Positions 28,831 through 32,546 of a stretch of 32,869 nucleotides of DNA are shown one piece after another; position 1 is the first letter of the stretch, and every line of letters starts with the position of its first letter. Both the position numbers and the translations under genes were made by a program. Source of the stretch: Alicyclobacillus kakegawensis NBRC 103104 (lineage in GTDB: Bacteria; Bacillota; Bacilli; Alicyclobacillales; Alicyclobacillaceae). Location of the stretch: assembly GCF_001552655.1 (NCBI RefSeq), contig NZ_BCRP01000028.1, positions 1-32,869 on the forward strand, read 5' to 3'. The notes under the pieces are model-generated. The model was not told the origin of the DNA and searched no databases. It saw nothing but the letters and a program-made list of their open reading frames with translations.

Positions 28831-29732
28831 CGTGGCTCCCCGGACGTGCGCCACCACGACGCCAAGACGGAGGCAAACTGACCGGCGCACGCCGGCATAT
28901 TGCCCTCCCGCCGGCCGATGAGTGTGATGGTGCGCGCCCCCAGTTCTTTGTCCACCGGTTGTATGACCCGTAGCCGCCCCTCTGCGACATCGTCCGCGAC
29001 ACAGGAGCGAGGCAGGCAGGACAGACCTACCCCCAATTGGACCAGGCGACTGATGCTCTCCAGACTGTCTGTCTCCATGGCGACCGTGAGGGACACACCG
29101 GCTGAACGGGCCAGGTCATCCACGATGCGGCGCAGGCCGGATCCCCTGCGCATCAGCACCAGCGGCTCACTCATCCACTCGCTGCGCGAAGCTCGACCGC
29201 GCTCGGCCAACGGATGCCCAGGCGCCGCCACCAACAACAGCTCATCGCGCAGCAGCGGGATGGTCCAACAATCCACCATGTCCTCGCCCACTGTGGTCAC
29301 CACGCCCAGGTCAATCTCCCGCCGCTGCAGGGCCGCGGCAATCTCCTTGGACGATCCGCTCGTCACCTGAAACTGCACACGCGGGTGCTGGCGACGGTAG
29401 GCAGCCAAGACGGGCGGCAGCAGATAAATGGACGGGGTCAACCCGGCCCCCAGGTAGACCGTTCCCACGTCAGCGTCTGCGAGGGCGCTCAATTCGTCTC
29501 GCATCTTGTCATGCAGGCCCTGATGGCTCTTGGCGTAGCGATAGACCACGGTGCCGGCGCGGTTGAGGACCAGCCGCTTGCCCATCCGGTCAAACAACTT
29601 GACGCCCAAGCGCTCCTCCAACTGCTGCAGCTGCCGCGTCACGGTGGGTTGGGTTAGGTGCAGCTGTTCGGCTGCCTGCACCAGGCTCGACGATTCCACC
29701 ACGGCAATCAACGTGCGCAACCAAGCATCCAA
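28827..29732 (-). CDS. LysR-family transcriptional regulator
   Basis: A 301-residue LysR regulator: N-terminal winged HTH (about 1-60; AAEQLHLTQPTVTRQLQQLE, LGVKLFDR) and a co-inducer domain (about 90-295) with GLTPSIYLLPPVLAAYRRQHP and VQLGVGLSCLPRSCV. TTG 29732 is selected because AAGGTGAGG lies 8 nt upstream and the resulting length is normal for the family; the open frame continues 71 codons upstream with no plausible content, across the regulatory region. It is divergent from purA, with three palindromic half-sites between them, the usual LysR arrangement for controlling the neighbour and itself. The effector is unknown. Confidence 0.92.
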   Translation of the reverse strand: MDAWLRTLIAVVESSSLVQAAEQLHLTQPTVTRQLQQLEERLGVKLFDRMGKRLVLNRAGTVVYRYAKSHQGLHDKMRDELSALADADVGTVYLGAGLTPSIYLLPPVLAAYRRQHPRVQFQVTSGSSKEIAAALQRREIDLGVVTTVGEDMVDCWTIPLLRDELLLVAAPGHPLAERGRASRSEWMSEPLVLMRRGSGLRRIVDDLARSAGVSLTVAMETDSLESISRLVQLGVGLSCLPRSCVADDVAEGRLRVIQPVDKELGARTITLIGRREGNMPACAGQFASVLASWWRTSGEPR

Positions 29733-29774
29733 ACCATATCCCTCACCTTCATTCGATTGATGGCGCGGCCTGCT

Positions 29775-29805
29775 ATTATACGAAATCCGTATACAAAGTA
29801 TACGG
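29775..29805. promoter_or_regulatory. LysR-type operator and lysR -10 box in the lysR-purA intergenic region
   Basis: CCGTATAC-AAA-GTATACGG (29787-29805) is a perfect 8-bp inverted repeat containing the T-N11-A pattern of LysR sites (29790-29802). A third half-site TATACG at 29777-29782 pairs with CGTATA over 5 bp. A consensus TATAAT for lysR lies on the minus strand at 29775-29780, overlapping that half-site, which fits autorepression. No good -35 for purA was seen, as is common in activator-dependent promoters. Confidence 0.65.
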
Positions 29806-29958
29806 TAAATGAATTTTACACATAACACAATCGACCGTAGACTGGGAGGTGCACGAACGGTCTGCTGGCTCCATGACCGCGGTTTGGTCGAACGGTCGCG
29901 TCGGCGCAGCAGGCGCCGAAGCCACAGCCCGATTTTGCTGAACACGGAGGCGACGGAT

Positions 29959-31218
29959 ATGGTGCACGCGGTGGTAGGCGCCCAGTACGGAGATGAAGGA
30001 AAGGGGAAGATGGTCGACTATTTCGCCGTCGATGCCGACATGGTGATTCGCTACCAGGGGGGTGGCAACGCGGGCCACACGATTGTCAATGAACACGGCC
30101 GATTTGCCCTGCACTTGGTGCCCTCGGGTATCTTCAATCCTGACACCAAGGCGGTGCTGGGAGCCGGTGTGGTCATCCACCCGATGAACCTCGTCCACGA
30201 ATTGAAATCGCTTAACGACGCTGGAATCTCCACGGACAACCTGATCATCTCTGAACGCGCCCACCTGGTACTGCCGTATCACATTTGGCAAGACGAATAC
30301 GAGGAACTCGCGCGATCACGGAAAGTCGGAACGACTCGACAGGGCATCGGGCCAGCGTACCAGGACAAAGTTGGCCGCTTCGGCATTCAAATCGGCGAGA
30401 TGCGCGACCTTGGACATTTCCGCAGCCGAGTTGAACAGGCCTACCAGGCGAAGATGGAACGCATGCCAGGTATGGCCGCGTTTGCCCAGCCATTTTCCGA
30501 TATCTGGAGCGAATTGGTGGAGGCGCGTGAACACCTACTGCCCCACATTCACGACACGCTGCCCATCCTGCAAGCGGCGGTATCCTCCGGGAAATACGTG
30601 CTGCTCGAAGGCCAGCTCGGGATCATGCGGGACCTGGATTGGGGCGTCTATCCGTTTGTCACCTCTTCGTCGCCCATCGCTGGCGGCGTCCCGGCCGGGT
30701 GCGGCCTTCCTCCGCAAGCTGTAACACGCGTGACCGGCATCACAAAGGCCTACACGACGGCGGTTGGAGCGGGTCCATTCCCCACTGCGCTGAACGACGA
30801 ATTCGGCAGGCACCTACAGGACAAAGGGCATGAATACGGCGCCACCACCGGCCGTCGACGTGATTGCGGGTGGCTCGACATCCCGACGCTGCGTTACGGC
30901 GCCTTTATCAATGGGTACACGGAGCTGGCCGTGATGAAACTGGACGTCCTCTCTGGTCTCCCGCAGGTGGCATTATGTGTTGCCTATGAACTGGACGGTC
31001 AGCGCTACGACTATCCTCTGCCGTCCTACCAGTTGGAGCGGGTGACCCCGGTGTACGAATGGCACGACGGATGGCAAGAGGACCTGTCCGACTGTCGTCG
31101 TTTTGAAGATTTGCCGGAGGAGGCGAAAGGCTTGATTCAGCGGATTGAAACCCTGGTCGGTGTGCCCATCCGGTTTATCTCCGTCGGGCCTGACCGTCGG
31201 CAAACGATTGTCCGCTGA
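29959..31218 (+). CDS. purA: Adenylosuccinate synthetase
   Basis: A 419-residue cytosolic enzyme joining IMP and aspartate with GTP hydrolysis, first step of AMP synthesis. Visible are the P-loop-like GDEGKGK (11-17, Asp12), GHT with His40, GTTRQGIGPAY (124-134), YPFVTSSSPIAGGV, KAYTTAVGAGPFPTAL, the aspartate-loop motif GATTGRRRDCGWLD and GPDRRQT at the end. The normally near-invariant EGAQG reads EGQLG (217-221), and the C-terminus is a few residues short. ATG 29959 has GGAGG 8 nt upstream; an open frame extends 50 codons further without an RBS. A LysR partner is unusual for purA, so a diverged paralogue is possible. Confidence 0.9.
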   Translation: MVHAVVGAQYGDEGKGKMVDYFAVDADMVIRYQGGGNAGHTIVNEHGRFALHLVPSGIFNPDTKAVLGAGVVIHPMNLVHELKSLNDAGISTDNLIISERAHLVLPYHIWQDEYEELARSRKVGTTRQGIGPAYQDKVGRFGIQIGEMRDLGHFRSRVEQAYQAKMERMPGMAAFAQPFSDIWSELVEAREHLLPHIHDTLPILQAAVSSGKYVLLEGQLGIMRDLDWGVYPFVTSSSPIAGGVPAGCGLPPQAVTRVTGITKAYTTAVGAGPFPTALNDEFGRHLQDKGHEYGATTGRRRDCGWLDIPTLRYGAFINGYTELAVMKLDVLSGLPQVALCVAYELDGQRYDYPLPSYQLERVTPVYEWHDGWQEDLSDCRRFEDLPEEAKGLIQRIETLVGVPIRFISVGPDRRQTIVR

Positions 31219-31343: not shown

Positions 31344-32546
31344 TCAAACTATATCGCCCTGCACCCAAGGGAGTTGGGGAGCCGGTTGCGGCTGGGTCCC
31401 TGTGGCCAAGGCGTCTGGTCCCAGTCTTAATAGCGTTTCCAGTTGGCGATGGATTTGCAGGGGATTCAGGCTGGCCGCCCATGAAGCCCAAGCCCGCCGT
31501 GTGGGCTCGTCCAACACACTGCTTTCCAGCAGACGCTGCAGCGGTGTCCGAGCTGTGTCAAAGGTCTTGTGGACTTTGCTGCCGCGGCGTTGCTTGTGGA
31601 TGGTCTTACGGCCCGGGAGACAGGCGTTCGCATATGCGTCGAGCCATGCATATATCGTGTTCAGCCATTGCACGTGTTGGGGTGTATCGTAACGTTCGTA
31701 ACCGACGACCTCACGGACCAAGACACGGTTCTTCTGCTCTACATGGGCGTTGTCGTTCTTCTTGTAGGGGCGGCTGCGCGTGAATTGCAGGCCGTGTGTC
31801 TTGGTAAACCTCAGGATATGGTTATTCAAGAATTCTGAACTGTTGTCGGTATGGAGCCCCCAAACAGGTCCCAGCCACTGGGCCAAGATGTGCTGTAAGG
31901 CTTCTAAGACAGCCTTTTGACTACGGCCCAGAACCGCTTGACGTCTGCTGTAGCCCGTCACGAAGTCGACGACGGAGAGGGTGTAGGCGAAATGTCCGAT
32001 AGAAGAGCCGCCGTTGTGTTCGACCAGGTCAATCTCCAGCGCACCAGGTCGCTGCTCATTCCAGCGGTAGGTATCCACAGGAACCTCGGCACGGATCTTC
32101 GAGATAGCTCTAGTGGCCGTTGGGACCTTTTTCGTGCCAGGGCTGCGCCATGAGGCCATGCGCCGAGCCAAGGTGGCACGGCTGATCTGGGCCAGTTGAC
32201 TGCGCACCTCATCGGTGAGAATGAGTTCGCCATGCGCGGCAAGCTGCTCTGCTGTGGATAACAACACTGGGTGCAGACGCTCAGCACAGGGATAGTCCAA
32301 GGCATCCCAGACGAGTTGAATGACCGACATGGCGGCCTCGTACTTACGTTTTCGAGGCTTGGCGGGTCGGCGCGCGGTCGTATTTGGAGGATGCCGCAGT
32401 ACAGTAATGGCATGCTTTCTAGCATAACCGAGCGTGGTGACGACCTCGTCTATAATCTGGGATTTCTGGGATTTCGTCTTGGCCTTAGCGTAGCGTTCAC
32501 CCATGCTGGTCAGGTACTCTCTACGGCTCTGCAAGGACATACGCAC
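31344..32546 (-). CDS. IS transposase with DDE integrase core
   Basis: A 400-residue transposase: an N-terminal helical DNA-binding part (about 1-150, basic stretch RRPAKPRKRK at 59-68) and an integrase-core domain. The catalytic triad is readable as Asp173 (EIDLVEH), Asp234 (LHTDNSSEF) and Glu270 (NAHVEQKN), with 35 residues between the last two, the normal spacing. The GTG start at 32546 has AAGGA 6 nt upstream; ATG 32540 is the alternative. The frame is intact and the terminal repeats are present, so the element may still be active. The exact IS family needs comparison with a curated collection. Confidence 0.92.
   Translation of the reverse strand: MRMSLQSRREYLTSMGERYAKAKTKSQKSQIIDEVVTTLGYARKHAITVLRHPPNTTARRPAKPRKRKYEAAMSVIQLVWDALDYPCAERLHPVLLSTAEQLAAHGELILTDEVRSQLAQISRATLARRMASWRSPGTKKVPTATRAISKIRAEVPVDTYRWNEQRPGALEIDLVEHNGGSSIGHFAYTLSVVDFVTGYSRRQAVLGRSQKAVLEALQHILAQWLGPVWGLHTDNSSEFLNNHILRFTKTHGLQFTRSRPYKKNDNAHVEQKNRVLVREVVGYERYDTPQHVQWLNTIYAWLDAYANACLPGRKTIHKQRRGSKVHKTFDTARTPLQRLLESSVLDEPTRRAWASWAASLNPLQIHRQLETLLRLGPDALATGTQPQPAPQLPWVQGDIV

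Follow-up and report, generated by a model that had tools for sequence, protein, structure and literature searches.

The purA gene stands at the branch point of purine synthesis leading to ATP, and in Bacillus subtilis it belongs to the PurR regulon together with the remaining genes of purine synthesis. PurR binds there upstream of purA, and the PurBoxes, which are 14 bp each and contain a CGAA core, lie 16-17 bp apart (PMC8789054). A second point of comparison is offered by the LysR-type transcriptional regulators (LTTRs) BenM and CatM, which act at the PbenA and PcatB promoters of Acinetobacter. These have a Site 1 of the form ATAC-N7-GTAT and a Site 2 that overlaps the -35 element at PbenA, and the proteins hinder polymerase if they occupy Sites 1 and 3 (PMC6628147).

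We analysed a window of 32,869 nucleotides, an entire stretch of forward-strand DNA from Alicyclobacillus kakegawensis NBRC 103104, in which a lysR gene and purA are divergently oriented. The region between them resembles the BenM/CatM arrangement in having a Site 1 with the same ATAC-N7-GTAT sequence and T-N11-A geometry, and a Site 2 at the -35 element whose 3' half is weak, as at PcatB (PMC6628147). It differs in that the target is a central biosynthetic gene rather than one of aromatic catabolism, and the LysR proteins concerned are only generally related. With the Bacillus PurR-PurBox system the locus shares its target, purA, and a PurR that is still encoded in the family (PMC8789054); unlike in that system, however, purA is without a PurBox pair, the regulator is an LTTR and the sites are T-N11-A dyads. 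Among solved LTTRs, CbbR (the regulator of the Rubisco operon), NtcB and CysB are nearest to the family profile and have the full-length LTTR architecture in common with it, but they serve other pathways and match the profile with E-values of 2.6e-42 or weaker.

Taken together, comparative sequence evidence points, with a probability that we put at about 0.86, to a dedicated LTTR switch on purA, in which LysR would act at Sites 1 and 2, replacing PurR/PurBox control and travelling with a distinct PurA. LysR control of AMP synthesis, which the first-pass annotation of this DNA had proposed, is thereby strongly supported at the level of predicted regulation. Among the open-licence papers listed there was no report of LysR control of purA. 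The family Alicyclobacillaceae appears to have uncoupled the purA step from PurR by means of a private, putatively ligand-responsive regulator and to have adopted a PurA whose active-site loop is altered in place of the former enzyme, and a single conserved 75-bp switch marks these changes. This would be a clean case of the regulatory rewiring of a core gene by an apparently single-target LTTR.

The divergent pair and its regulator

A purA match was found in 41/41 Alicyclobacillaceae genomes examined, spanning 16 genera, and in every one of them the gene is divergently arranged with a lysR orthologue, which bears out the conservation of the pair that the first-pass annotation had set as a test. 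The lysR orthologue was placed in 37 of these genomes and, separately, in G381, G398, G415 and G417. As the 41 genomes make up one family, they represent many lineages but probably one origin of the arrangement. There is one PurA match per genome except in G023, which has an additional, fragmentary match containing a stop codon. This fragment (G023:C17:108991-109362) corresponds to a PurA C-terminus, is 42% identical and has an internal TAG, and is possibly a relic of a second purA.

Across 398 genomes of the class, 30 of them from the family, the family lysR genes score at least 360 bits, and the best other gene 229. No PurA match was seen within the 6.8-6.9 kb regions around the closest LysR genes from other families (G095, G077, G083). 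At 17 purA places in other families lysR adjoins purA at four, all of which carry the second purA type described below. By contrast, 12/12 canonical loci from the order and class have purA after dnaB with no lysR detected next to it, in keeping with the earlier statement that the pairing is uncommon.

The protein has the N-terminal HTH_1 domain (PF00126, 73.9 bits, 1e-20) and the LysR substrate-binding domain (LysR_substrate, PF03466, 164.2 bits, 3.4e-48) of LTTRs, both over their cut-offs; its start codon was placed from the sequence and the family alignment. Among the 25 of 53 NCBIfam matches listed none reaches its cut-off for lysR, and there is no BenM/CatM entry either among these or among 14 solved chains matched at E <= 1e-30.

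In the window a transposase-like gene lies 3' of purA on the opposite strand (31344-32546); its rve core match of 30.4 bits falls short of the Pfam cut-off (32.6). At 9 of the 29 family loci compared, purA is followed by reading frames for membrane proteins that resemble one another and look EamA-like by eye (L010, L012, L015, L017, L019, L021, L023, L025 and L026).

The conserved block and the purA promoter

The first-pass annotation had called three TATACG half-sites and a perfect 8-bp inverted repeat between the two genes, and both are present in the window. The half-sites start at 29777 (+), 29788 (-) and 29799 (+), at a pitch of exactly 11 bp, and the repeat reads CCGTATAC-AAA-GTATACGG. 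With up to three mismatches allowed, the window contains a single copy of the palindrome where 0.06 would be expected (one or more copies arose in 5 of 100 shuffles), and elsewhere in the 3.42-Mb genome there is no copy with fewer than two mismatches; TATACG alone is not rare, with six occurrences in the window against four expected. Coordinates of these and the other features are collected in Table 1.

Table 1. Features of the lysR-purA region, in window coordinates
Feature	Position	Strand	Remarks
lysR, LysR-type regulator, 301 aa	28827..29732	-	TTG start at 29732, GGTGAGGG upstream
lysR -10-like TATAAT	29775..29780	-	exact hexamer in 1/41 rows, own genome only
Site 1, candidate recognition site ATACGAAATCCGTAT	29778..29792	.	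ATAC-N7-GTAT, T-N11-A; centre ~-65
8-bp palindrome of the first-pass annotation	29787..29805	.	joins Site 1 (right half) to Site 2 (left half)
Site 2, candidate activation site ATACGGTAAATGAAT	29800..29814	.	second T-N11-A; centre ~-43, abuts -35
purA -35 TTTACA	29815..29820	+	TTTACA in 40/41, part of the anchor; promoter scan
CATA after -35	29821..29824	+	CAT part of the anchor, 41/41; final A 35/41
purA -10 TAGACT	29838..29843	+	17-bp spacer; family consensus TACACT
purA, adenylosuccinate synthetase, 419 aa	29959..31218	+	sole copy found in genome
Codons for G218-Q219-L220-G221 (GQLG signature)	30610..30621	+	other PurA: GAQG, GAQA or GGQG

To compare the family, the gaps of all 41 genomes, with no row left out, were aligned without indels on the anchor TTTTAC[AT]CAT, which is present in 41/41, giving 92 columns in which column i corresponds to window position 29764+i. 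Seventeen of the 92 columns (14, 15, 25, 27, 28, 36, 37, 49-55 and 57-59) are invariant in all rows. The anchor itself accounts for columns 50-55 and 57-59, and for column 49 in four rows, so that invariance there is partly by construction, the rows having been aligned on this motif; the other invariant columns are independent of it. The invariant columns read AT-N9-G-N-AT, followed by an AT-N11-AT that continues into the -35 element, and finally CAT. They delineate two T-N11-A sites with a pitch of 22 bp; in 41/41 genomes the alignment is free of indels as far as the spacer between -35 and -10. In Site 1, columns 14, 15, 25, 27 and 28 are those that never vary, and ATRC-N7-GYAT is found in 32/41; in Site 2, T-N11-A is found in 41/41 and the left half ATRC in 36/41, the right (3') half being degenerate. 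The layout expected of an LTTR target, namely a T-N11-A dyad near -65 with a second site near the -35 element, is thus seen in all 41 rows, with the site centres of -65 and -43 resting on a start of transcription placed at about 29850, seven bases after the -10 element. The purA promoter is sigma-A-like (TTTACA-17-TAGACT, 29815-29843) and matches 9/12 consensus positions, and its spacer is 17 bp in 38/41 and 18 bp in 3/41. The AT at 29822-29823, within the CATA, is in 22-bp register with half-sites 1 and 3, making it a possible fifth half-site.

In light of this alignment, the half-sites of the first-pass annotation stand, but its pairing of the second with the third does not: conservation suggests that the first is paired with the second, as Site 1, and the third with a degenerate fourth, as Site 2. 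The full 8-bp palindrome is perfect in only 1/41 family rows. Arm identity alone leaves the pairing unsettled, since the inner 4 bp of the palindrome pair in 19/41 rows and the 4-bp arms of Site 1 are exactly complementary in 13/41; the Site 1/Site 2 pairing was chosen because of its position relative to the purA promoter and its resemblance to BenM/CatM. Likewise, the reported overlap of half-site 1 with a lysR TATAAT box holds on the minus strand of the A. kakegawensis genome but is not a general feature of the family.

A model built from the sequences of 26/41 blocks alone recovers 41/41 with E-values of at most 8.1e-11, and the best of the remaining hits stands at 0.0078. The block model yields no second strong match in the 41 family genomes, so that no further target built in this way is seen, though the model demands the whole block under stricter filters and weaker or differently spaced sites could escape it.

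We envisage that LysR would bind as a tetramer to Site 1 (~-65) and Site 2 (~-43), and that the liganded protein would contact RNA polymerase and so activate purA. When free of ligand, LysR would probably keep purA expression low and limit that of its own divergent gene, and a shift in its position towards the conserved CATA may bring about repression. Our best guess for the ligand is a substrate-side metabolite of the PurA reaction, i.e. IMP or a precursor thereof, or aspartate. With 9/12 consensus matches the purA promoter could work without an activator, and repression is therefore possible. A reading that casts LysR chiefly as a repressor of purA whose effect the ligand lifts, rather than as an activator, draws on this fair sigma-A match and on the location of the CATA between the -35 and -10 elements, a place at which a dimer that had shifted would obstruct polymerase, as BenM/CatM do at Sites 1 and 3 (PMC6628147). 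We nevertheless consider it unlikely, though the strongest of the competing readings, because a Site 1 and a Site 2 so placed form an activating layout and, unlike in the described BenM/CatM arrangement, the -10 element is not seen to be covered by a complete third dyad.

A distinct PurA and the fate of the canonical gene

The purA product matches PF00709 at 7.6e-161 and is the single match in its genome by both protein and Pfam searches. It exceeds the family cut-offs for PurA (TIGR00184, 461.4 versus 395.55 bits; PRK01117, 509.2 versus 402), and scores 102.4 bits against the cut-off of 300 for the NCBIfam model of PurZ, the enzyme of the phage diaminopurine pathway. It is set apart by its GQLG signature. 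At the position of Gln224 (E. coli numbering without Met, as throughout), which we take to be an active-site residue of PurA, Leu is found in 23/23 sampled rows of the GQLG clade and Gln in 20/20 others. The clade has a Gln at the preceding position (GQLG instead of GAQG), and the position of Leu228 is occupied by Arg in 23/23 rows. Asp13, Lys16, His41, Thr129, Arg303 and Arg305, presumably likewise functional residues, are kept in 18/18 aligned family rows, as are Gln34 and Asn38 in the family PurA rows. Since the family models are matched, we still file the protein as PurA despite the missing Gln224, which raises the enzymological question of how PurA works without this residue.

The same GQLG signature is found outside the family in G042, G044, G045, G046 and G057. 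A scan of the 398 class genomes at E <= 1e-120 returned six genomes with this second-type PurA, G042, G044, G045, G057, G228 and G348, the last two being assigned by 90% identity rather than by a reading of the signature. In a tree of 43 PurA rows (18 family, 5 second-type, 12 canonical and 8 others; root not known), the family and second-type enzymes form one clade with support of 100/98, apart from the PurA of E. coli, Nonomuraea, Fusobacterium, Phocaeicola, alphaproteobacteria and canonical Bacilli, with long branches for Phocaeicola, Nonomuraea and Fusobacterium.

The second-type and family loci have in common a GQLG-type PurA and a divergent lysR, the latter being present at 6/7 second-type purA genes (G042, G044, G045, G057, G228 and G348); in G046 the upstream region is similar, with no lysR found within 2 kb. 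They differ in that G042, G045 and G057 have a further PurA match besides the second type, and in that the lysR of the second type shares 27-28% identity with that of the family. The two regulators are probably not orthologues, judging from their sequences, because another lysR gene of G045 is closer to the family lysR (36%) than is the purA-linked one (28%). A lysR tree of 32 rows places the second type on a branch of length 2.0 and leaves the shared ancestry of the two lysR types undecided. An AT-rich dyad, TTAT-N7-ATWA, was read by eye at a fixed place before the -10 element at 7/7 second-type purA genes (L174, L180, L181, L182, L188, L191 and L192). In G044, a 91% complete genome of a neighbouring family, the lysR-linked second-type PurA (L180) was found alone, with no canonical PurA, and is perhaps another displacement.

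In the Alicyclobacillaceae the distinct lysR-linked PurA appears to have displaced the ordinary one. Where Priestia has the order dnaB-purA-yycF, the A. kakegawensis genome has walR (yycF) next after dnaB, at a distance of about 550 bp, and no purA in the interval (L206, 3865-4431). The canonical gene is therefore missing from its usual place in this genome, the one in which the locus was examined, and the lysR-linked purA serves alone; elsewhere in the family the case for displacement is the single PurA match per genome.

A more far-reaching proposal is that lysR and the active-site-altered PurA constitute a portable unit, which in the Alicyclobacillaceae displaced a PurR-controlled housekeeping PurA and made AMP synthesis inducible by the LysR ligand. 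Such a unit may have originated as a second, inducible PurA, perhaps one that resists natural inhibitors of AMP synthesis such as hadacidin or alanosine. Because the lysR genes of the two branches are probably not orthologous, the pairing would on this proposal have formed, or formed anew, on more than one occasion. We regard the proposal as decidedly speculative and improbable as it stands.

PurR, PurBoxes and the ownership of the sites

A PurR-type control region was taken to be a PurBox pair preceding purA, with its CGAA and TTCG cores separated by about 30 bp. At a score of at least 9/10 such a pair was found before 9/13 canonical purA genes versus 0/41 of the family, with 300 bp scanned in the former and the real gap, up to 300 bp and often 116-250 bp, in the latter (80 bp before to 130 bp after the anchor in G381, G398, G415 and G417). 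Shuffled family gaps reach a score of 9 in 8/600. A search with exact cores gave the same picture, with pairs at 9/13 canonical, 0/41 family and 0/4 second-type purA genes. Two CGAACGGTC repeats in the purA leader (29854-29862 and 29889-29897), each containing a CGAA core, were considered as a PurBox and rejected, as they are direct rather than inverted and lie 35 bp apart.

PurR itself (PF09182) is present in 36/37 family genomes examined, including that of A. kakegawensis. Before purE, for which 30 loci from the 40 genomes with a purE match were scanned, a PurBox pair with a score of at least 9 is found at 8/30 loci, six of them scoring 10/10; the two at 9 may be due to chance, as shuffles reach 9 in 18/600. 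Exact cores within 450 bp are seen at 7/30 purE loci, against none in downstream controls and 42/2000 in shuffles, and purE of A. kakegawensis (L239) has no PurBox pair, with a score of 7. PurBoxes at a minority of purE loci therefore support a continued role of PurR for part of the family only. On the purA side, the predicted LysR switch apparently stands in place of PurR/PurBox control of the conversion of IMP to adenylosuccinate in the family.

The retention of PurR, its binding upstream of purA in B. subtilis (PMC8789054), and the CGAA cores of the leader repeats could all be invoked for the view that the conserved block is a site of another purA regulator, above all PurR, with lysR merely a neighbour. 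This is very improbable, given that the PurBox pair is absent from every family purA scanned, that the leader repeats have neither the orientation nor the spacing of PurBoxes, and that the block consists of two T-N11-A dyads adjoining an invariably paired lysR.

LTTRs commonly autoregulate, and in the A. kakegawensis genome half-site 1 overlaps the lysR TATAAT, but the notion that the sites serve lysR autoregulation alone, beside a constitutive purA promoter, is equally hard to sustain, as that hexamer is confined to a single row, Site 2 abuts the purA -35 element, and the distance from Site 1 to the edge of the lysR match (not its start codon) ranges over 16-474 bp in the 37 rows measured whereas the spacing to the purA -35/-10 elements is fixed, which argues that Site 1 belongs to the purA promoter.
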